64,000 nt of DNA from Arcobacter ellisii. Lineage in GTDB: Bacteria > Campylobacterota > Campylobacteria > Campylobacterales > Arcobacteraceae. The notes beneath the pieces are model-generated. The model was not told the DNA's origin. It did no database searches and was given only the letters and a program-made list of their open reading frames with translations. Shown here piece after piece: positions 1 through 45,714 of the stretch. A program made the position numbers and the translations under genes. How positions within the stretch are numbered: position 1 is the stretch's first letter; each line of letters opens with the position of its first letter. The stretch is taken from NCBI RefSeq assembly GCF_003544915.1, contig NZ_CP032097.1:620001-684000 (forward strand), read 5' to 3'.

Positions 1-425
1 ATAAAAAACTTGATGGTTTAACAATTACTCCAAATTATGCAATTTCAAGAATTGGTGATGGTGGTGGAGCTATGCCAAAACAACATGCAATTTTTGAAGC
101 TTATGGAGTAATTGCAGGAAGTGATGGAAAAGTTGGAACTGCTGATGATATAAATATTGGAAAAGTAGATGCAAAATGGAATATAGAGGCTTTTGACGAA
201 AGAGCTATTGAAGATGAAGATGTTAAATATGTTGGAACAATTGATTCATTTAGTGGAAGATTTACACCATCGTTTGCAGGACCAAATCCAAAAAGAAAAT
301 TTAGCACTAATAATGCTGGAAATATAAAAGTAGTAGCAACTTATAAAGATGGTATTGAAACATATAAAGCAGATTCTCATATGATGGTTACAGTTCAAAA
401 ATGGGTAAATCCTCCAATTAATTAG
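1..425 (+). CDS. qhpA: Quinohemoprotein amine dehydrogenase alpha subunit, C-terminal part (5' end outside window)
   Basis: The reading frame is open from the left edge (first full codon at position 3) to the stop at 423-425, so the ATG at 72 is internal and the gene is cut by the window. What remains is about 140 residues of a beta-rich, glycine- and lysine-containing periplasmic domain, with no CxxCH haem motif because those lie in the missing N-terminal domain. The identification rests mainly on context: qhpD, qhpC, qhpB and the other QHNDH maturation genes follow directly, and the alpha subunit gene is known to precede qhpD. In the family this subunit carries two c-type haems and receives electrons from the CTQ cofactor of the gamma subunit. 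The gap to qhpD is 9 nt and contains its ribosome binding site. Confidence 0.8.
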   Translation, partial: KKLDGLTITPNYAISRIGDGGGAMPKQHAIFEAYGVIAGSDGKVGTADDINIGKVDAKWNIEAFDERAIEDEDVKYVGTIDSFSGRFTPSFAGPNPKRKFSTNNAGNIKVVATYKDGIETYKADSHMMVTVQKWVNPPIN

Positions 426-434
426 GAGTTAATT

Positions 435-1835
435 ATGAGTAATAATGAATTTAAAGTAAATAGACAAAATTTTAGAATTGTTAAAAAAGATAATGAAAAT
501 TTACTTTTTCATGTACCTACAACTTCTTTATTTGAAATAGATGAAACAAATGAAAAATTGTTAAATAGATTAAATAATAAAGAATTAAAAATAACTGATT
601 TTTCCAAAGAAGAATTAGTTGAGTTAGAAAAACTAAATATTATTGGAAATATTGAAAAACAAGAGTACATAGAAGTTAAAAACTTTCCTGCAACTACACT
701 TATTTTAAATGTAGCAACAGGTTGTAATCTTAGTTGTACTTATTGTTATAAAGCAGATTTAACAACTTTGAAAAATAGTGGAAATATGAGTTTTGAAACT
801 GCAACTGCTGCAATTGAACAACTTTATGCAGGTGCTCCTAATCAAAAAGTTTACAATGTAACTTTTTTTGGTGGCGAGCCTTTGAGTAATTTTACTTTGA
901 TTAAAGAGGTTACAACTTTTGCAGTTAAATTTTTTAAAGAGAAAAATGCACTTGTTGATTTTACAATGACAACAAATGCAACACTTTTAACAAAAGAGAT
1001 AATAGAGTTTTTAAAAGCTTATAAGTTTGGAATTACAATTAGTATTGATGGACCAAAAGCAATACATAATAAAACTAGACTTACAAATGCTGGAACTGGA
1101 AGTTATGACGCAGTTAGAAAAAAAGTAGAGATGCTTTTAAGTTTATATAATGATAGACCAATAGGTGCAAGAGTGACTCTTACGCGCGGAGTTACTCAAA
1201 TTGAAGAGATTTGGGACCATTTATATAATGAACTAAAATTTACAGAAGTTGGATTTGCACCAGCAACTGCAAGTGATAACGCTATGTTTAATCTAAGTGA
1301 ATTTGAACTTTTAAAAGTATTTGAAGGTTTTAAAGAGATGGGAGAAAAATATATATATTCAGCTTTAAAAGATGAATTTAATGGTTTTTCAAATCTACAT
1401 AGATTACTTGGCGACATTCACGCAGGAAGAAAGAAAAAACTTCCTTGTGGTGCAGGTGTTGGGTTATTATCAGTTAGTTATGATGGAAATTTTGATTTAT
1501 GCCATAGATTTACTGGAAGTGATTTTGGTAATTTTGGAAATATTAAAACAGGTCTTGATAAACCAAGACTATCAAACTTTATTGAAAAAAGATTAAATAA
1601 AAATGATGGAGATTGTTCAACTTGTCATATTAGAAATCTGTGTGCAGGAGGTTGTTATCACGAAAGTTATATTAGATACAACGACCCTACAAAAGCGGTG
1701 CTTCATTACTGCGATATTATGAGAGACTGGATAGATTTTGGATTATATGCTTATTCAAAAATAAGAAATAATAATCCTAAGTTTTTTGACTTATATTTTA
1801 AAGAAGAAAAAGGAGATGTAAATGGGCTTATTTAA
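435..1835 (+). CDS. qhpD: Radical SAM/SPASM thioether-forming enzyme for the QHNDH gamma subunit
   Basis: 466 residues. The radical SAM cluster motif is CX3CX2C at C97, C101 and C104. The C-terminal third carries a seven-cysteine SPASM pattern (C338, C356, C394, C397, C403, C407, C426) for auxiliary Fe-S clusters. The first 70 or so residues look like a peptide-recognition domain. In characterised systems QhpD uses SAM to make three intrapeptide Cys-to-Asp/Glu thioether bonds in the unprocessed QhpC in the cytoplasm. The ATG is preceded by AGGAG at good spacing. The 3' end overlaps qhpC by 14 nt, which fits coupled translation of enzyme and substrate. SPASM proteins act on many peptides, but the adjacent canonical substrate makes this assignment firm. 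Confidence 0.95.
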
Positions 1836-2145
1836 ACCTTTAAATCCAAAAGCAGATTTATTAAATAAATCTATAAAAGAGGGACGAGAAAAAGAAGTTG
1901 TTGCAATGCAAAGTATTGTTGGGTGTACAAGTACATTTGACCCAGGTTGGGAAGTTGATGCTTTTGGTGGAGTAGCAGGACTTTGTCAACCAATGGAATC
2001 AGACCTTTATGGATGTTCAGATCCTTGTTGGTGGCCAACACAAGTTCCTGATACTATGAATAATCCAGGATGGAGTTCAAAATCACCAGCAAGTTCAAAA
2101 GAGTGGAGAAATCTAAATTCTGTTTTTCCAATAGATGATAAATAA
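1822..2145 (+). CDS. qhpC: QHNDH gamma subunit precursor (CTQ-bearing, thioether cross-linked peptide)
   Basis: 107 residues, the substrate of QhpD, QhpG and QhpE. Numbered with a 28-residue leader removed, the residues of the Paracoccus cross-links fall exactly in place: C35/E44 (Cys7-Glu16), C55/D61 (Cys27-Asp33), C69/D77 (Cys41-Asp49), and C65/W71 (Cys37-Trp43) for the cysteine tryptophylquinone. The core motif GCSDPCWWP lies at residues 64-72. The leader is charged and not a Sec signal, as expected for a peptide modified in the cytoplasm and exported by a dedicated transporter. The cleavage site after A28 is inferred from the numbering and not seen directly. The start codon lies inside the end of qhpD. 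Confidence 0.95.
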
Positions 2146-2156
2146 AAGGTTTTAAG

Positions 2157-3293
2157 ATGAAAAGAGTTTCGATATTAAGTTCATTAGTTTTAGGTATGTT
2201 TATTAGTGGTTGTAGTTTAACACAACCAACAACTCCAACAAGTAATACTCAAAATTTAAAATTAGAAAAAAATAGAGATTATTTAGCAACTGTTAGTAGA
2301 AAAAATGAATTACATATAGTAGATTCAACTACAAATAAACTTTATAAAACTTGTAAATTACAAGGTGATTATATGAGTGGAGGAATGGTTATTTCTCCAA
2401 AAGGTGATACTGCTTATGTTCTACAAGATAATTGGGGTGCAGTTTATGGATATGATTTAAATAGTTGTGAAAATACATTTAGAGCAAAATTTTCTTATGA
2501 TAATGTAAGAGCGATGTCAATTTTTTCATTTACCTTAAGTCCTGATGGGAAAAAGCTTTATACTATTTCGAATCCAACACAAATGTTAAATGATAGATAT
2601 AAAGTTCTTGACCCAGTATTTAAAACATTTAATACAAATGACGGATTAGATGCTAAACCAATTGATAGTTTTAAAGCACCAAGACAAATAACAGTTATGG
2701 CAACTGCTGATGATGGAACTTTATATGCGTCTGGTTCAAATGTATATAAAATAGATCCAGAGAAAAAAGAGTTTTCAATTGCTGCAAAATTGAGAAATTG
2801 GGATAGAGCAAATTACTCTTCAGCTGATGTTTTAGCAATGTGGCCAATTGGAAATGTATCAAAAGAGTTTTTACTTATGTATACAGCTGCCAAATTCCCA
2901 AATGATAAAATGGATATGAATGAAGCAGAGTTTGTTTGGGGAGCAACTAGAGTTGATTTGAAAACAAATGAAATTGTTCAAGAAGATTTTGCACCACTTG
3001 AAAGTGTAATGTTTACAGGTATGACTCATCCAAAAGATACAAATCTTTTATATGGAGTTTTAACTGATTTAACAAAATTTGATAGAAAAAATCAAAAGGT
3101 TATTAAAAGAGTTTATTTAGACCATTCATACTATTGTATAAATTTTGCAACAGATGCTTCTAAAATTTATCTTGGTGGAACTTTTAATGATATAGCGGTT
3201 TATAATCCAGATACTTTAGAAAAAATTACAACAATAAAATTACCTGATGGTGATGTTGGAGCTGGAACTTTACAAGTATTTAGGGTTAAGTAA
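2157..3293 (+). CDS. qhpB: QHNDH beta subunit, seven-bladed beta-propeller, with lipoprotein-type signal
   Basis: 378 residues with YVTN/WD-like propeller repeats (stretches such as VVDSTTNKLY, SPKGDTAYV and SPDGKKLYT), matching the beta subunit that forms part of the QHNDH active site in the periplasm. The N terminus is a signal peptide ending in a lipobox, ISGC with Cys19 followed by Ser20, which predicts lipidation and probably outer-membrane anchoring. That is not what the soluble Paracoccus enzyme shows. The gene follows qhpC by 11 nt with an AAGG ribosome binding site. The identity is inferred from position and fold, since propeller proteins are common, but the operon leaves little doubt. 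Confidence 0.88.
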   Translation: MKRVSILSSLVLGMFISGCSLTQPTTPTSNTQNLKLEKNRDYLATVSRKNELHIVDSTTNKLYKTCKLQGDYMSGGMVISPKGDTAYVLQDNWGAVYGYDLNSCENTFRAKFSYDNVRAMSIFSFTLSPDGKKLYTISNPTQMLNDRYKVLDPVFKTFNTNDGLDAKPIDSFKAPRQITVMATADDGTLYASGSNVYKIDPEKKEFSIAAKLRNWDRANYSSADVLAMWPIGNVSKEFLLMYTAAKFPNDKMDMNEAEFVWGATRVDLKTNEIVQEDFAPLESVMFTGMTHPKDTNLLYGVLTDLTKFDRKNQKVIKRVYLDHSYYCINFATDASKIYLGGTFNDIAVYNPDTLEKITTIKLPDGDVGAGTLQVFRVK

Positions 3294-3297
3294 TAAT

Positions 3298-4935
3298 ATG
3301 TTTAAAAATATTTTATATCCTCTCTTACGTAAAAATAAGAGAGGATTTTTTGTCATTTTCTTTTTTTCAATTCTTGTATCTCTTGGTGGAGCAATTCAAC
3401 CATTTATTATGCAACACATAATTGATAATGCAATTTTAGCTTCAAATATAAATCAACTTTTTTATCTTGTTTTAATCTCTTTTTTTCTTGCAATTTTTGT
3501 GATGTTGATGAGTGCTGTAAATGAGATTTATTACACAAAAAATTCAATGAATATTTTATTTGAATTTAGAAAAATAGTTTTTAATAGACTATTTTTACAT
3601 GATAAAACTTTTTTAAATAAATATCATTCTGCAGATTTGATGAGTAGAGTTCAAGGTGATATTAGTGAACTTCAAAGGTTTTATACAGATAGTATATTTT
3701 CACTATTTTCAACTATCATTAGTCTTGTATTTATCTCTTGTATTATATATTCATATAATATAAAACTAATGATATTAATACTTATATTTTTACCAATAGA
3801 GTTTATTTGTTTAAAACCTCTATATCCACATATGCAAAATAGTACAAAAACTATGAGGGAATCAACTTCAAATATTGGTAAATTTTTTATAGAAAGTTTT
3901 AGATATATGTTAACTATAAAAAATCTTGGAGCAAAAGAACAAGTTATAGACAAACTTGATTTTATTCAAGATGATTATAAAAATATTGTAATAAAAAACA
4001 AAAAAATAAATCTACTTTTTTCTCAAATTCCTGCATTTATCTCTCTTCTTGGAAAAACAATAATTATAGCTTATGGTGGATATTTGACAATTAAAGGTGA
4101 ATTAAAAATAGGTGAACTTGTGGCATTTTTGACATACTTTACTATGATTTTAGCACCAGTTCATACGATATTAGGAGTTATAAATAATTTTCCAAAAGTA
4201 AAAGTAAGTCTTAATAGAGTGCTTGAAATATTACCAAAAGAGAAAGATAATATAGAATTAATAACAAAAAATTTTGATTTAAGCATAAAAAATTTAGAGT
4301 TTTTTTACTCAAACAATAAAATATTTGAAAATCTAAATCTTTTTATAAAAGAAAAAAGTAAAATCGCAATTATTGGAAAAAACGGTGCAGGTAAAACTAC
4401 CTTCGCTGATTTACTTTGTGGATTTGTAAAAGCTAACAATGGAGATATTTTTATAGGAAATCAAAAAATAGGAAAAAATGATTATATAAACTTCTCTTTA
4501 TATTTGGTAAAGTTAGAACAAAGCCCAATTATTTTTGACGATACATTAAAAAACAATCTTCTTTTAGCTAAAAACAATGCAAGTGAAGAGGAGTTAATAG
4601 ATTCTCTAAAAAAAACAGGTATGTTTGAGTGGTTTAAAAAGTTAGAAAAAGGTTTAAATACAAATATTTTAGAATCAGGAGCAAATCTTTCTGGTGGTCA
4701 AAAACAAAGATTAGCTCTTTCAAGATTAATTTTATTAAATCCAAAAATTATAATTTTAGATGAATTTACCTCTTCAATTGATGAAAAAGATAGTACTTGG
4801 TTTTATGAAAATATTTCATTAATTTTCCCAAATTCAACTATTATTGCAATAACACATAATCTAAATATGTTGAGCTATTTTGAAAAAGTTTATTTACTTG
4901 AAGATAAAACTTTAAAAGAGTACAAAAATGCCTAA
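3298..4935 (+). CDS. qhpF: ABC transporter, fused membrane and ATPase domains, probable QhpC exporter
   Basis: 545 residues from the ATG at 3298, chosen because AGGG lies at good spacing and an upstream in-frame ATG at 3247 would overlap qhpB by 47 nt. The N-terminal half has about six membrane segments of an ABC exporter. The ATPase half has Walker A GKNGAGKT at about 360-367, signature LSGGQ at about 464-468, Walker B IIILDE near 485-490 and a switch His in ITHN. In characterised QHNDH operons the ABC protein exports the cross-linked gamma subunit to the periplasm. The end overlaps qhpE by 8 nt. No peptidase C39 domain is visible, consistent with leader removal by the separate QhpE. Confidence 0.88.
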   Translation: MFKNILYPLLRKNKRGFFVIFFFSILVSLGGAIQPFIMQHIIDNAILASNINQLFYLVLISFFLAIFVMLMSAVNEIYYTKNSMNILFEFRKIVFNRLFLHDKTFLNKYHSADLMSRVQGDISELQRFYTDSIFSLFSTIISLVFISCIIYSYNIKLMILILIFLPIEFICLKPLYPHMQNSTKTMRESTSNIGKFFIESFRYMLTIKNLGAKEQVIDKLDFIQDDYKNIVIKNKKINLLFSQIPAFISLLGKTIIIAYGGYLTIKGELKIGELVAFLTYFTMILAPVHTILGVINNFPKVKVSLNRVLEILPKEKDNIELITKNFDLSIKNLEFFYSNNKIFENLNLFIKEKSKIAIIGKNGAGKTTFADLLCGFVKANNGDIFIGNQKIGKNDYINFSLYLVKLEQSPIIFDDTLKNNLLLAKNNASEEELIDSLKKTGMFEWFKKLEKGLNTNILESGANLSGGQKQRLALSRLILLNPKIIILDEFTSSIDEKDSTWFYENISLIFPNSTIIAITHNLNMLSYFEKVYLLEDKTLKEYKNA

Positions 4936-5557
4936 AGAGGTTTTTGTTGCACTAATAGATAGCGGTTGTGATTTTGAAACCTTTGAAAAAATTGCAATAG
5001 AGATTGAAGAGAATGAAATAAAAATAGTAAATCAAAAAAAAATAAATTTTGAACATGGAAATGTTATTGGAAATATTATAAAAGATGAAAATACAAATAT
5101 TTATGATATTCAAGTATTTAACGAAAATTTATCAACTACTCCTAATCATATTTTTGGTGCATTAAATTATCTAAAAGATAAAAAAGTTGATGTAATAAGT
5201 ATGAGTTTGGGACTTAAAACAAACTATAAAGAGATAGAAAGTTTAGTGAATGAATTTATAAAAAAAGGTGTTGTAATAATCTCTTCATACCCAAGGCGTG
5301 GAGAAGAGTTTGTTTATCCCGCTTCTTATGAAAATGTTATAAAAGTAACTTCTGAGGGAATGTGTAAAGATGATAAAGTAGTTGTTTTAGATAAAGAAAA
5401 ACTATTTTTTGGAGCAAATCCATTTTCAAATGTAAAAAATGTAGCAGGTTCAAGTGTTGCCGTTGCTAAGTTTACAAAAGAGTTTTGTTCTTTTTTCAAA
5501 AAGGGTTTTAGTAAAGTTGAGATAATTGAAGAGTTTTCAAAAAGGATTGTTAAATGA
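4928..5557 (+). CDS. qhpE: Subtilisin-like serine protease, probable QhpC leader peptidase
   Basis: 209 residues, very short for the S8 family and with no signal peptide, so it should act in the cytoplasm. A catalytic triad can be assigned: D11 in IDSGCD, H43 in FEHGNV and S176 in GSSVA (equivalent to GTSMA). The usual oxyanion-hole Asn, normally in an AAGN-like motif, is not visible; the matching stretch reads ISSYPRRGEE. In Paracoccus the equivalent protease cuts the 28-residue leader from cross-linked QhpC. The gene overlaps the ABC gene by 8 nt and qhpG by 4 nt. The function is inferred from operon position plus the triad. Confidence 0.88.
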   Translation: MPKEVFVALIDSGCDFETFEKIAIEIEENEIKIVNQKKINFEHGNVIGNIIKDENTNIYDIQVFNENLSTTPNHIFGALNYLKDKKVDVISMSLGLKTNYKEIESLVNEFIKKGVVIISSYPRRGEEFVYPASYENVIKVTSEGMCKDDKVVVLDKEKLFFGANPFSNVKNVAGSSVAVAKFTKEFCSFFKKGFSKVEIIEEFSKRIVK

Positions 5558-6879
5558 ATAGTAATAAAAAGATAGTTGTACTTGGTGCTGGAATTGCAGG
5601 TACTTCTACAGCTATAGGACTTAAAAAATTAGGTTTTGATGTAACAGTGATTTATAAAAATAGACCTTTTACTGCTTTTGAAGGATTTAGTGAAAAAACA
5701 AAAGAGGGACTTATTTCTCAAGGTTGTATAAATGCTTCTAAACTTTTAGTTGAACAATCTTTACGAAATTCAAATTGGGCAACAAAATCAAATAGAGTAA
5801 ATTATGAATTTGTTGTAAATAGAAGCATATTAGACAATGCCTTATTAGAAGATTTAAAAGAGAATCAAATAAAAATAATTGAAGCAAAAGTTGTAGGAGC
5901 AATAGATTCACTTGAAAAAAAACCTAAAATTACATATAAAATAGATGAAGAAAAATATGATTTAATTGCAGATTTTATGGTTGATGCAAGGGGTAGATTT
6001 ACTCCTTTTAAAGATGAATATATTTGTGGTCCAAAAAGTTTTTCTCTTCTTCAAGAATTAGAACTTGAAAATATAAAAGAAAATAAAACTTCCATTGATT
6101 CTGTAAAAGATGGTTGGATTTGGCAAGCTTATGTTGGAAATAAAAGAGGTTATATTCAATTTTCTTGTGATGAAGAGTTTTTAAATAGAGTTAATAGTTT
6201 TGAAGATATGTTAAAAATTTTGCAAGAACAAGATATAAAACTTTGGAGTTTAAATAACTATAAAGTTGTAGGAAAATTAGTAAAAAGAGATTCTTTTTGC
6301 AAAATCCATAAAGAGATAATAAATAATAAAATGATATTAGTTGGGGATAGTGCATCAAGTGTTGACCCACTTTCTGGAAATGGTGCATTTCAAGCTATGA
6401 GTATGTCAAGTATTGCCCCATATGTAATAAATACAATTTTAAATAAAAGTGAAGTCGAACAAAAAGTGGCAATTGATTTTTATAAAAGTAGGGTAGAGTT
6501 TATTTTTGATAAATTTACAAAAATTGGTAAAGAGTTTTATTTATTAGAAAAAAGATTTGATACAATTTTTTGGCAAAAAAGACAAACTTGGCCACAAAAT
6601 AAAGATAAATTAGAAAATCAAATTCCAAGAATAGAAAAAAAAGCAGTCGTAAAAAATGGTTTTGTAAATCAAAGTGAGGTAATAATCACAAAAGAGAATC
6701 CTTTTGGTGCTTGTTATTTTGGTAATATTGAAATTATAGACCTAGCTAAATATTGTTTGAAAAATAGATTTGAAGACTCTTTAGAATATTTTGATGTTTT
6801 TTCCAAAGAGAAAAATCTCTCAATGGAATTTTATAACTCTTTGAAAAAATGGTTTATTTCTCAAGAGATATTATTTTAA
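5554..6879 (+). CDS. qhpG: FAD-dependent monooxygenase, probable Trp dihydroxylase for CTQ formation
   Basis: 441 residues. The N terminus has the FAD-binding motif GAGIAG at 11-16, and a flavin-hydroxylase GD motif (VGDSASSVDPLSGNG) lies near residue 263, as in p-hydroxybenzoate hydroxylase-type and tryptophan-halogenase-like flavoproteins. In QHNDH systems QhpG adds oxygen to the Trp of the cross-linked gamma peptide, the first step to the tryptophylquinone. It overlaps qhpE by the ATGA tetranucleotide and is the last gene of the operon; a hairpin spans its stop codon. Other flavin monooxygenase roles are possible in isolation but not in this context. Confidence 0.9.
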   Translation: MNSNKKIVVLGAGIAGTSTAIGLKKLGFDVTVIYKNRPFTAFEGFSEKTKEGLISQGCINASKLLVEQSLRNSNWATKSNRVNYEFVVNRSILDNALLEDLKENQIKIIEAKVVGAIDSLEKKPKITYKIDEEKYDLIADFMVDARGRFTPFKDEYICGPKSFSLLQELELENIKENKTSIDSVKDGWIWQAYVGNKRGYIQFSCDEEFLNRVNSFEDMLKILQEQDIKLWSLNNYKVVGKLVKRDSFCKIHKEIINNKMILVGDSASSVDPLSGNGAFQAMSMSSIAPYVINTILNKSEVEQKVAIDFYKSRVEFIFDKFTKIGKEFYLLEKRFDTIFWQKRQTWPQNKDKLENQIPRIEKKAVVKNGFVNQSEVIITKENPFGACYFGNIEIIDLAKYCLKNRFEDSLEYFDVFSKEKNLSMEFYNSLKKWFISQEILF

Positions 6880-6890
6880 TATCTCTTTTA
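6864..6890 (+). terminator. Hairpin terminator of the qhp operon
   Basis: A perfect 10-bp inverted repeat (AGAGATATTA at 6864-6873 and TAATATCTCT at 6877-6886) with a 3-nt loop is followed by TTTTA. It spans the qhpG stop codon and lies between convergent genes. Confidence 0.6.
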
Positions 6891-8744
6891 ATAACTACTA
6901 GTATCTTTGTTTTTTAACAAATCTTTTTTAAATCTTACTACTTTATTTCTACCTGTATCTTTAGCTTCATAAAGCGATAAATCTGCAAATTTAATACATT
7001 TCCAAATTTGGTCTGTATCAGTTGGGAAGAAAGAGTATCCTATACTTACAGTTTTACTAAATGATTCATTATTAAATGTAAATATCAATTTAGAGAAATC
7101 TTGATTTATTTTATTCGCTAATTTTAAAGCACTCTCTTCAGTTGGATTTTTCATTATTATTAAAAACTCTTCCCCACCAAATCGAATAATAAATTCATTT
7201 TCACTTACTGCATCTTTCATTGTTTGAGCTAATTTTTGTAAAATAGCATCACCAGCATCATGCCCATAAGTATCATTTATCATTTTGAAATAATCAATAT
7301 CTAAGAACATAATAGCAAAAGTTGTTCCTTCTCTTAATTCAAAAGGAAGTTTTCTATCTATAAATTCATCTAAATATTTTCTATTATAAAGTCCTGTTAA
7401 TCCATCTACTAGATTTCTTTCTCTTAATACATCCATTAAAAGTTTACTTTCTAAAATAGGTTTTGTCTCTTCAAGATATTTTTTAATTATTCCAATTTGA
7501 TATTTAACATGTTTTAAACACTCTTGGTCGTGACAAATTATATGAATAATTACATTTTTTTGGTCATTGATTAAAAATGGAATACAAATATGTTTTGTAT
7601 CATTTTTACAAGTTGCAAGTCTGCAAATTTCTGGGAAATTTTCAGATGAGACAATTGTATCAGTTCTTTCTGCTCTACATCTCTCTTTTATATTATTTGA
7701 TAAATTACAACAAGGAGTAGTATCTTTTGTTGCAAAAATTACTTTTCTTTCATCTTTTATCAAATCTGTTTCAAAAATAAAGAACTCTTGTATTTTTAAT
7801 TTATCTTTTAAAACTTGAATTAATCTATAATAAATATCTTCTTTTGTTAAATCAGTTTCTATTGTTTTTTTATAATTATAAATTTCAGAGATATCTTCAA
7901 TTATCTCTTTTGCACTTAAAAGTTTGTCATTATTTACATTTATTGATCTATTATGTACAAAAGCAGTAAGATTTTTTTCAATTCCAGTTAATACAGTTTC
8001 AAGTTTTTCAATAAGTTCATTTAACCAAGCAGAAGCTTCTTTGTCTTCTTTTAAAACACCAGCTTTTGCTCTTACACTATAATCACCTTCATGTACTTGT
8101 TTTAAAACTTCAGTAATTGAATCAAAAGAAGTAGTATAAGGTTTAATTTTTTTACTAATATAAATCAAAATAAATATTAAAAATAAAGAGATAATTGCAA
8201 TAATATTTAATAAAACAGCGATACTTGAAATTCTATCTTCTTGAATATCAAAAGTTAAAGAAATAGCTCCTAAAACTTCTCCCTCTTGTGCATTATGACA
8301 AGATAAACAATTTGGTTTATCTTGTGAAGAAGCTGTATATGGAATTGTAATTCTTAAAGTTGCATTTGTTAATGACTCTTTTATTACAACTTCTTCTTTC
8401 CCTGTTTCTAATACATCTTTATCTATTTCATCTCTTGGAATTTCATTTGTTAATTTTGATTGTCCAAATTGTTTACTTACACTTTTTGCTCTAATAATCC
8501 ATAAATCATTTACTTCATTTAGTTGACTTATACCCTCTAAAAAAGTCTCTCTTTGATCCATATTTCCATTAACCATATGAGAAGTTAATGATTTTTTTAC
8601 AATATCAGCAGTTAAATAAGCTCTTTTTTTTGCACTATCATATCCACTTTGCCTAGACCCAAGTGCAACTAATGCAACTATGACAATAGTTAGTAGTGTA
8701 ACCATTGAAAAGATAATAATAGTTATTTTTTTATTAGAGTTCAT
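6888..8744 (-). CDS. Membrane diguanylate cyclase with haem-type periplasmic sensor and Cys-rich GAF-like domain
   Basis: 618 residues. A membrane segment at about 7-29, a periplasmic region with a CLSCH (CxxCH) motif at 146-150 of the Tll0287/DUF3365 haem-binding type, a second segment at about 174-197, and a HAMP-like linker precede a cytoplasmic GAF-like region with eight cysteines (345, 346, 356, 374, 379, 387, 404, 409). The C terminus is a GGDEF domain with GGEEF at 523-527 and so should make c-di-GMP. The sensor is likely a redox, oxygen or NO detector. The cysteines could bind a metal or Fe-S cluster, but the ligand is not known from sequence. An AAAGG site precedes the ATG. It converges on qhpG. 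Confidence 0.85.
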   Translation of the reverse strand: MNSNKKITIIIFSMVTLLTIVIVALVALGSRQSGYDSAKKRAYLTADIVKKSLTSHMVNGNMDQRETFLEGISQLNEVNDLWIIRAKSVSKQFGQSKLTNEIPRDEIDKDVLETGKEEVVIKESLTNATLRITIPYTASSQDKPNCLSCHNAQEGEVLGAISLTFDIQEDRISSIAVLLNIIAIISLFLIFILIYISKKIKPYTTSFDSITEVLKQVHEGDYSVRAKAGVLKEDKEASAWLNELIEKLETVLTGIEKNLTAFVHNRSINVNNDKLLSAKEIIEDISEIYNYKKTIETDLTKEDIYYRLIQVLKDKLKIQEFFIFETDLIKDERKVIFATKDTTPCCNLSNNIKERCRAERTDTIVSSENFPEICRLATCKNDTKHICIPFLINDQKNVIIHIICHDQECLKHVKYQIGIIKKYLEETKPILESKLLMDVLRERNLVDGLTGLYNRKYLDEFIDRKLPFELREGTTFAIMFLDIDYFKMINDTYGHDAGDAILQKLAQTMKDAVSENEFIIRFGGEEFLIIMKNPTEESALKLANKINQDFSKLIFTFNNESFSKTVSIGYSFFPTDTDQIWKCIKFADLSLYEAKDTGRNKVVRFKKDLLKNKDTSSY

Positions 8745-44917: not shown

Positions 44918-44994
44918 TGGCGCGGCTGACGAGACTCGAACTCGCGACCTCCTGCGTGACAGGCAGGCATTCTAACCAACTAAACTACAGCCGC
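44918..44994 (-). tRNA. tRNA-Asp (GTC), copy 1
   Basis: Reads on the minus strand with acceptor GCGGCTG/CAGCCGC, anticodon loop CTGTCAC (GTC), TTCGAGTC T-loop and encoded CCA. Identical to the copy at 45305-45381. It is the last tRNA of the operon. Confidence 0.97.
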
Positions 44995-45015
44995 ACTTGG
45001 AAATATATAAAGAAG

Positions 45016-45091
45016 TGGTGGTCGATATAAGACTCGAACTTATGACATCTACCTTGTAAGGGTAGCGCTCTACCAACTGAGCTAATCGACC
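45016..45091 (-). tRNA. tRNA-Val (TAC), copy 1
   Basis: Minus strand, acceptor GGTCGAT/ATCGACC, anticodon loop CTTACAA (TAC), encoded CCA. Identical to 45446-45521. Confidence 0.97.
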
Positions 45092-45110
45092 GTTTGTTGC
45101 ATATTTGGCT

Positions 45111-45185
45111 TGGTGACCCCTAGGGGATTCGAACCCCTGTGGCATGGATGAAAACCATGAATCCTAACCGTTAGATGAAGGGGCC
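45111..45185 (-). tRNA. tRNA-Glu (TTC), copy 1
   Basis: Minus strand, acceptor GGCCCCT/AGGGGTC, anticodon loop TTTTCAT (TTC), encoded CCA. Identical to 45541-45615. A likely MnmA substrate. Confidence 0.97.
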
Positions 45186-45208
45186 AAGATTATGCAACAA
45201 TGTAAAAG

Positions 45209-45284
45209 TGGTGACCCGTGATGGATTCGAACCATCGGCCCCCTCATTAAAAGTGAGATGCTCTACCGGCTGAGCTAACGGGTC
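45209..45284 (-). tRNA. tRNA-Lys (TTT), copy 1
   Basis: Minus strand, acceptor GACCCGT/ACGGGTC, anticodon loop CTTTTAA (TTT), encoded CCA. Identical to 45639-45714. A likely MnmA substrate. Confidence 0.97.
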
Positions 45285-45304
45285 ACATAAATAAACAATA
45301 AAAG

Positions 45305-45381
45305 TGGCGCGGCTGACGAGACTCGAACTCGCGACCTCCTGCGTGACAGGCAGGCATTCTAACCAACTAAACTACAGCCGC
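45305..45381 (-). tRNA. tRNA-Asp (GTC), copy 2
   Basis: Same sequence as 44918-44994, with encoded CCA. The spacer to the next tRNA-Val (45382-45445) is longer and unlike that of copy 1, the only real difference between the two repeat units. Confidence 0.97.
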
Positions 45382-45445
45382 ACTTTATAAACAAAGTCAC
45401 AATAAAATAAAAATCCTATACTAACTGTATTTTTAGATTTTTAAG

Positions 45446-45521
45446 TGGTGGTCGATATAAGACTCGAACTTATGACATCTACCTTGTAAGGGTAGCGCTC
45501 TACCAACTGAGCTAATCGACC
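45446..45521 (-). tRNA. tRNA-Val (TAC), copy 2
   Basis: Same sequence as 45016-45091, with encoded CCA. Confidence 0.97.
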
Positions 45522-45540
45522 GTTTGTTGCATATTTGGCT

Positions 45541-45615
45541 TGGTGACCCCTAGGGGATTCGAACCCCTGTGGCATGGATGAAAACCATGAATCCTAACCG
45601 TTAGATGAAGGGGCC
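45541..45615 (-). tRNA. tRNA-Glu (TTC), copy 2
   Basis: Same sequence as 45111-45185, with encoded CCA and the same flanking spacers. Confidence 0.97.
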
Positions 45616-45638
45616 AAGATTATGCAACAATGTAAAAG

Positions 45639-45714
45639 TGGTGACCCGTGATGGATTCGAACCATCGGCCCCCTCATTAAAAGTGAGATGCTCTACCGGC
45701 TGAGCTAACGGGTC
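45639..45714 (-). tRNA. tRNA-Lys (TTT), copy 2, first tRNA of the operon
   Basis: Same sequence as 45209-45284, with encoded CCA. It is the first tRNA after the promoter at 45761-45789. A small hairpin (arms 45731-45737 and 45744-45750) lies in the leader just before it. Confidence 0.97.

Follow-up and report, generated by a model that had tools for sequence, protein, structure and literature searches.

A complete and probably hybrid quinohemoprotein amine dehydrogenase operon in the chromosome of Arcobacter ellisii

The stretch of DNA analysed here (the window) comprises 64,000 nt of the Arcobacter ellisii chromosome, positions 620001-684000 of contig G000:C1 (NZ_CP032097.1) in a genome of 2.80 Mb on one contig, and it begins inside an operon for quinohemoprotein amine dehydrogenase (QHNDH). 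The operon is complete and very probably hybrid: a front part of one clade (clade I), consisting of genes for an AraC-domain protein and a TorF-type porin followed by qhpA, qhpD, qhpC and qhpB, stands upstream of an exporter and a flavoprotein from relatives that carry fronts of another clade (clade II), a state probably reached via a tandem stage. Seven consecutive genes, the first represented by its 3' part, occupy window positions 1-6879 on the plus strand (open reading frame (ORF) list) and are given below, together with the junction and the bordering gene.

1-425, plus strand: qhpA (3' part), C-terminal 140 aa of the alpha dihaem subunit; TIGR03908, 555 bits (cut-off 274); 1jmx_A, E 2e-115; two CxxCH motifs in the full protein
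435-1835, plus strand: qhpD, radical S-adenosylmethionine (SAM)/SPASM enzyme; TIGR03906, 571 bits (cut-off 453); conserved Cys
1822-2145, plus strand: qhpC, gamma subunit precursor; NF037958, 152 bits (cut-off 50); 1jmx_G aligned from residue 29
2157-3293, plus strand: qhpB, beta subunit, predicted lipoprotein; TIGR03907, 378 bits (cut-off 223); 1jmx_B match
3290-3300, no strand: junction of the clade I front with the F-E-G back part; DNA identity in 50-base bins
3298-4935, plus strand: qhpF, single-chain ATP-binding cassette (ABC) exporter, 545 aa; start placed by homology, ORF open from 3247
4928-5557, plus strand: qhpE, subtilisin-like protease; NF049966, 185 bits (cut-off 165); conserved Asp/His/Ser
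5554-6879, plus strand: qhpG, flavin-dependent peptidyl-tryptophan dihydroxylase; NF049967, 392 bits (cut-off 240); 7ctq_A, E 5e-59
6888-8744, minus strand: GGDEF protein gene, bordering the insert and outside the operon; ORF list, family search and neighbour comparison

An earlier sequence-only reading of this DNA had described a complete QHNDH maturation operon, and all seven genes were confirmed, six of the seven proteins (the alpha, gamma and beta subunits, the maturation protein QhpD, QhpE and QhpG) scoring above the curated cut-off of the matching NCBIfam equivalog. The gene overlaps it gave, 14 nt (qhpD/qhpC), 8 nt (qhpF/qhpE) and 4 nt (qhpE/qhpG), are exact. The full qhpA is found at G000:C1:618818-620425 (535 aa), with its start about 1.2 kb upstream of the window, and the haem motifs which that reading expected in the upstream part are present, since the whole-genome gene encodes CVACH at residue 47 and CARCH at residue 135. 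Divergent from qhpA and just upstream of the window are the AraC-domain and TorF-type porin genes, and beyond them lies a gene for a 984-aa protein with MutS domains I, III and V. At its C-terminal end, the product of this MutS-type flanking gene (L009:6059-9013) also matches DUF968 weakly, with a score under the cut-off of that family.

Trees of A, D, C and B split the sequences of the family (that to which the source genome is assigned in the genome search) into two groups. Clade I contains the window, copy 1 of genome G373, G448, G304, G434 and the second locus of G401; clade II contains G297, G346, the main locus of G401, copy 2 of both G373 and G406, G337, G424 and G207, with copy 1 of G406 as a deep branch. 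The main QhpD of G401 is truncated and was left out of the qhpD trees. An AraC-type gene adjoins each of the 15 mapped fronts in the family and its tree matches the clades within the genus, with G424 and G207 standing apart and copy 1 of G406, a long branch, falling with clade I. A lipobox, with its Cys 20-21 residues before the propeller core, is found in the beta subunits of 6/6 clade I and 0/9 clade II fronts, and among 13 beta sequences from outside the family a single pattern match (Rhodocyclales) lies inside a hydrophobic stretch and was judged unconvincing. In the window the lipobox reads ISGC and is followed by Ser; the clade I beta subunit is predicted to be a lipoprotein, and the enzyme form of the window should then be membrane-tethered. 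Half of the six clade I fronts, those of the window, G373 and G448, include the TorF porin gene, and these are the ones at the chromosomal site next to the MutS-type gene. Cassettes of the two clades come with separate regulators and may be directed at different amines, which provides a lead on the substrate in Arcobacter. Another porin type has joined the copy 1 front of G406, where a 355-aa Porin_4 protein is encoded between the AraC gene and qhpA (L036:6382-7449).

The front part of the window (A, D, C and B) is 80-95% identical to copy 1 of G373 and 42-64% identical to G297 and G346. In a sliding DNA comparison the identity switches at the qhpB/qhpF boundary, near position 3290: over bins 2900-3250 it is 86-98% to G373 copy 1, 76-94% to G448 and 42-80% to G297, and over bins 3300-3650 it is 78-100% to G297 and 46-70% to G448. 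The window exporter shares 90% identity with its G297 counterpart and 42-45% with the exporters of G304, G434 and G448, genomes that have clade I fronts. In the qhpF tree the window lies inside the clade II lineage, paired with G297 (support 100) and grouped with G401, G346 and G297 (95), and in the qhpG tree it is found with G297, G346 and G401 (99), so that the QhpG of the window sits with QhpC and QhpD of another clade than in its nearest relatives. Approximately unbiased (AU) tests rejected a placement of the window front with clade II (p = 0.001 for A, 0.0018 for D, 3e-73 for B and 0.01 for C), and likewise a placement of the back part with the clade I operons of G448, G304 and G434 (9e-7 for F and 6e-14 for G). 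By LepA, the window genome belongs to one clade with G401, G346, G297, G398 and G400 (support 98), joining G401 first and then the other four, away from G373, G337 and G406; its LepA is 96% identical to those of G297 and G346 and 87% to that of G373. HisA agrees with LepA (97-98% to G401, G346 and G297; 95% to G373).

A number of observations weigh against a hybrid, functional operon. A grouping of qhpE with clade I is not rejected (AU p = 0.167), and in the qhpE tree the group containing the window adjoins the clade I sequences. QhpG has no clade I/II split and roughly follows taxonomy, so that only QhpF represents a clean swap. The flanking genes have their own histories: the MutS-type gene disagrees with LepA and HisA, being nearest to G373 and grouping with the G373 set (protein tree, support 96), and the LepA tree mixes genera and does not keep the genus together, so that LepA may itself have been exchanged. 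The groups used in the AU tests were named after the identities were known, and the trees are quick searches without bootstrap. The AraC-domain gene, which gave generic domain matches, is a candidate qhpR by its position and AraC domain. Lastly, the sole growth test found in the literature, which concerns another strain, Arcobacter butzleri RM4018, was negative for three amines, the strain being reported not to grow with n-butylamine, benzylamine or methylamine as sole carbon source (PMC2147049).

As for the products of the operon, the alpha subunit matched domains PF09098, PF14930, PF09099 and PF09100 in the domain search, and alignments to 1jmx cover residues 39-534 of 535 (alpha) and 36-375 of 378 (beta). 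The solved relatives are 1jmx and 1jju (three subunits), the QHNDH of Pseudomonas putida and Paracoccus denitrificans, respectively, and 7ctq (QhpG). In QhpD, Cys 97, 101 and 104 (CxxxCxxC) are kept in 28/28 rows and seven further Cys in 27/28, the single row without them being the truncated one of G401. The gamma subunit keeps, as do 1jmx and 1jju, all eight residues of interest (add 28 for precursor positions): Cys37 and Trp43 of cysteine tryptophylquinone (CTQ), and the cross-link residues Cys7, Glu16, Cys27, Asp33, Cys41 and Asp49. The first four of the latter presumably form the remaining two cross-link pairs, the CTQ pair and the Cys41-Asp49 link being as published (PMC7876137). In the precursor, the part that can be aligned with the mature chains begins at residue 29, giving a 28-residue leader in agreement with the published length (PMC7876137). 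The exporter has ABC_membrane and ABC_tran domains, occupies the expected operon position and falls among the exporters of other qhp operons in a tree confined to operon exporters; among the NCBIfam equivalogs searched no qhp-specific model matched it, the hits being to generic ABC domains. Asp11, His43 and Ser176 of QhpE are kept in 20/20 rows and, by analogy with subtilases, probably form the catalytic triad. QhpG was aligned over residues 5-397 to its homolog 7ctq (PMC7876137).

By homology, QhpD would cross-link the gamma precursor in the cytoplasm through three thioether links, QhpG would dihydroxylate the CTQ tryptophan, QhpE would remove the leader and QhpF would export the processed gamma subunit. 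In the periplasm, the latter would join the dihaem alpha subunit and the beta propeller, giving an enzyme that would oxidise a primary amine to the aldehyde and pass the electrons via the haems to cytochrome c or a blue-copper protein, while the lipid anchor of the beta subunit would tether it to the membrane. The parts from different clades would work together in the cell, and the AraC-domain protein may regulate them in response to amines.

A complete qhp system has been known in this group since the 2007 report of QHNDH in A. butzleri RM4018, where it was called novel in the epsilon subdivision (PMC2147049), and the main claim of the sequence-only reading was thus already in print. The RM4018 locus, described with AB0466 and AB0467, resembles that of the window in the enzyme, the radical SAM and gamma genes, the proposed lateral origin and the naming of two aldehyde dehydrogenases; it was listed among clusters suggesting lateral, but not recent, transfer, and electrons were proposed to pass to cytochrome c or azurin and a cbb3 oxidase. 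The sections of that account drawn on here describe no cassette exchange or duplicate fronts, unlike what is found in the present family. The gamma gene is also mentioned as a target for quantitative PCR of A. butzleri (PMC6403187), the qhp operon has been stated to occur in more than 1300 species, and the maturation steps were established for P. putida and P. denitrificans (PMC7876137). Compared with the QHNDH of these two species, the beta subunit of the window has a lipobox and a porin gene adjoins the regulator; in Paracoccus sp. TOH the order is A-D-C-B-E-F with the flavoprotein gene divergent, whereas in the window all seven genes form one run, A-D-C-B-F-E-G. The present analysis adds to this the hybrid structure, the back part shared between fronts and a beta subunit predicted to be a lipoprotein; literature searches, none of them aimed at either topic, met neither cassette exchange nor a lipoprotein beta.

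The operon may be intact without supporting growth on simple amines; it could instead, for instance, remove a biogenic amine or draw only electrons or nitrogen from amines. This is a real possibility, if one with the balance somewhat against it, and it is compatible with the hybrid structure. The negative result for RM4018 points that way, as do the two full-length aldehyde dehydrogenase genes of the window genome, neither of which adjoins the operon (a further match is in two pieces of one frame), but the published test concerns another strain.

The route by which the hybrid arose is suggested by relatives with two fronts. In G373 and G406, two tandem fronts precede one F-E-G set, and in G401 one front stands with F-E-G and a second, lacking F-E-G, lies 0.74 Mb away; these three of the 12 carriers each have two gamma genes, one QhpE and one above-cut-off QhpG. 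The hybrid of the window would have passed through a stage like that of G373 and G406, with subsequent loss of one front. The alternative is a one-step replacement, in which an incoming clade I front replaced the resident clade II front by homologous recombination, with no tandem stage. The conserved flanks would act as arms, and the grouping of the left MutS-type gene with the G373 set looks as if that gene had been co-transferred; however, a left break was looked for inside the MutS-type gene and no clean one was found, tandem arrangements do exist, and G401, the nearest genome by LepA, has a clade I front elsewhere, so that clade I may be older in the lineage. Replacement in one step is possible but doubtful. 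QhpD of the window is 97.6% identical to that of the second front of G401, which might suggest a recent swap of qhpD alone. In 200-base bins, however, the DNA identity of these two fronts is 94-98% across D and the beginning of C, 82-92% across the 3' part of A, 53-72% upstream of this and 64-86% across B; with a LepA DNA identity of 92% between the two genomes, common descent of the tract with replaced flanks is an equally good account.

In the main front of G401 (L033:9983-11689), qhpD has a frame change and the CTQ tryptophan of the gamma subunit is replaced by cysteine, while the adjoining qhpF-E-G are open. In the distant clade I front, by contrast, none of the four genes is interrupted and the gamma subunit keeps the CTQ tryptophan. 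The combination of a damaged main front, open F-E-G and an intact distant front suggests that F-E-G act in trans for the latter. The two separate lesions make a sequencing error less likely, without excluding it. Ratios of nonsynonymous to synonymous substitution rates (dN/dS) show all genes to be constrained, with no sign of relaxed selection, and as this includes the damaged front of G401, the damage would be recent or a sequence error. QHNDH production in this family may thus be modular, a proposal for and against which the evidence is evenly balanced: a specificity cassette of regulator, sometimes porin, subunits and their own radical SAM cross-linker would be exchanged at one chromosomal site, and gamma subunits from more than one clade, even those encoded at a distant locus, would be processed by a single common exporter, protease and tryptophan hydroxylase. 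Each substrate molecule is acted on once by QhpD, QhpG and QhpE, and a ternary complex is formed by QhpC, QhpD and QhpG (PMC7876137), from which one might expect joint evolution of the whole maturation set. Genomes with two gamma genes and one QhpE and QhpG, and the natural hybrid, in which the operon is broken between enzyme and exporter, allow one to ask which partners must match and which interchange, and bear on the recombinability of maturation systems like those of ribosomally synthesised and post-translationally modified peptides (RiPPs).

QhpA was detected in 12 of the 104 genomes of the family, QhpC and an above-cut-off QhpG in the same 12, and QhpE, sought in the carriers only, once in each. 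Seven of the 31 genomes of the genus carry qhp, and in all seven the genes are flanked by the MutS-type and GGDEF genes, in G297 together with a set of genes named by eye, rather than by family search, as a resistance-nodulation-division (RND)-type pump. In G448, of another genus, they are found between the MutS-type gene and hisA, a different gene replacing the GGDEF gene, and in the remaining four carriers they have other neighbours. The order A-D-C-B-F-E-G is common to the mapped carriers of the family wherever the back part is present. The region was obtained from 18 of the 24 non-carriers of the genus: the flanking genes are adjacent in five and have other genes between them in nine, the MutS-type gene lies outside the stretch in three, and in one the contig ends too early. 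G398 is an example of an empty site: it aligns with the window as far as -2992, where the MutS-type gene ends, and again from 6888, the end of the GGDEF gene; the insert therefore consists of operon, regulator and porin gene, about 9.9 kb. The interval from the MutS-type gene to the GGDEF/hisA side (G000:C1:617013-626888; loci L108-L125) is a recurrent cargo site in the genus.

In a sample of the phylum, 7 of 397 genomes exceeded the alpha cut-off, all of them from this family, and four more gave weak matches below it. This distribution fits the proposal of the sequence-only reading that the operon had moved between phyla, and an old gain from another phylum is plausible, but no recent donor was found and a recent gain is not supported; the demonstrable movement is within the family. 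A scan of genome contigs with one protein gave only two loci, and outside relatives were therefore drawn from plasmids (search limited to E 1e-40) and from further genomes; they comprised 13 rows for A, D, C and B and 7-8 for F, E and G, all Pseudomonadota or metagenome-assembled genomes (MAGs) titled so. For five outside loci (Rhodocyclales, G522, G764a, G606 and G518) the stretch obtained contained none of F, E and G, and that of the L075 MAG lacked G; the exporter of a Leisingera plasmid and one unrelated ABC gene each in L034 and L073 were left out of the qhpF set, and duplicate copies of genes retrieved again in L106 and L107 were dropped. The gamma row of G207 lacks a leader as ORF-called, although the frame is open over it. 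In a sample of 398 genomes from the phylum of the Rhodocyclales MAG, seven were above the cut-off, including the genome of the MAG itself. In the tree of each of the seven genes the family stands on one side of a branch, opposite the outside rows; support for this branch is 100 in five trees (A, D, F, E and G) and weaker for B (94) and C (80).

That the operon as a whole arrived recently from another phylum is very unlikely. The restriction to one family in the phylum sample and the plasmid copies of qhp in Leisingera, Paracoccus, Cupriavidus and Pseudomonas would agree with it, but the best outside QhpD found is 48-49% identical, the family is one clade in the seven trees, if with few outside rows, and in G+C content the insert (0.264) resembles the window (0.278); recent transfer was rejected on the QhpD identity and the trees. 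Vertical descent of one operon at uneven rates, the front genes evolving faster than F-E-G, is the least probable of all, since although the mapped carriers share one gene order and the genus one site, the front is far closer to G373 copy 1 than to G297 and G346, the reverse of LepA, and it was rejected by the AU tests, which oppose it for six of the seven genes, and by the change of identity at a single gene boundary, qhpB/qhpF. In the Leisingera plasmid operon (L064:11829-13570), the exporter gene is annotated as two pieces. Elsewhere in the window, at 44918-45714, a block of tRNA genes (Asp-Val-Glu-Lys) is present in two head-to-tail copies.

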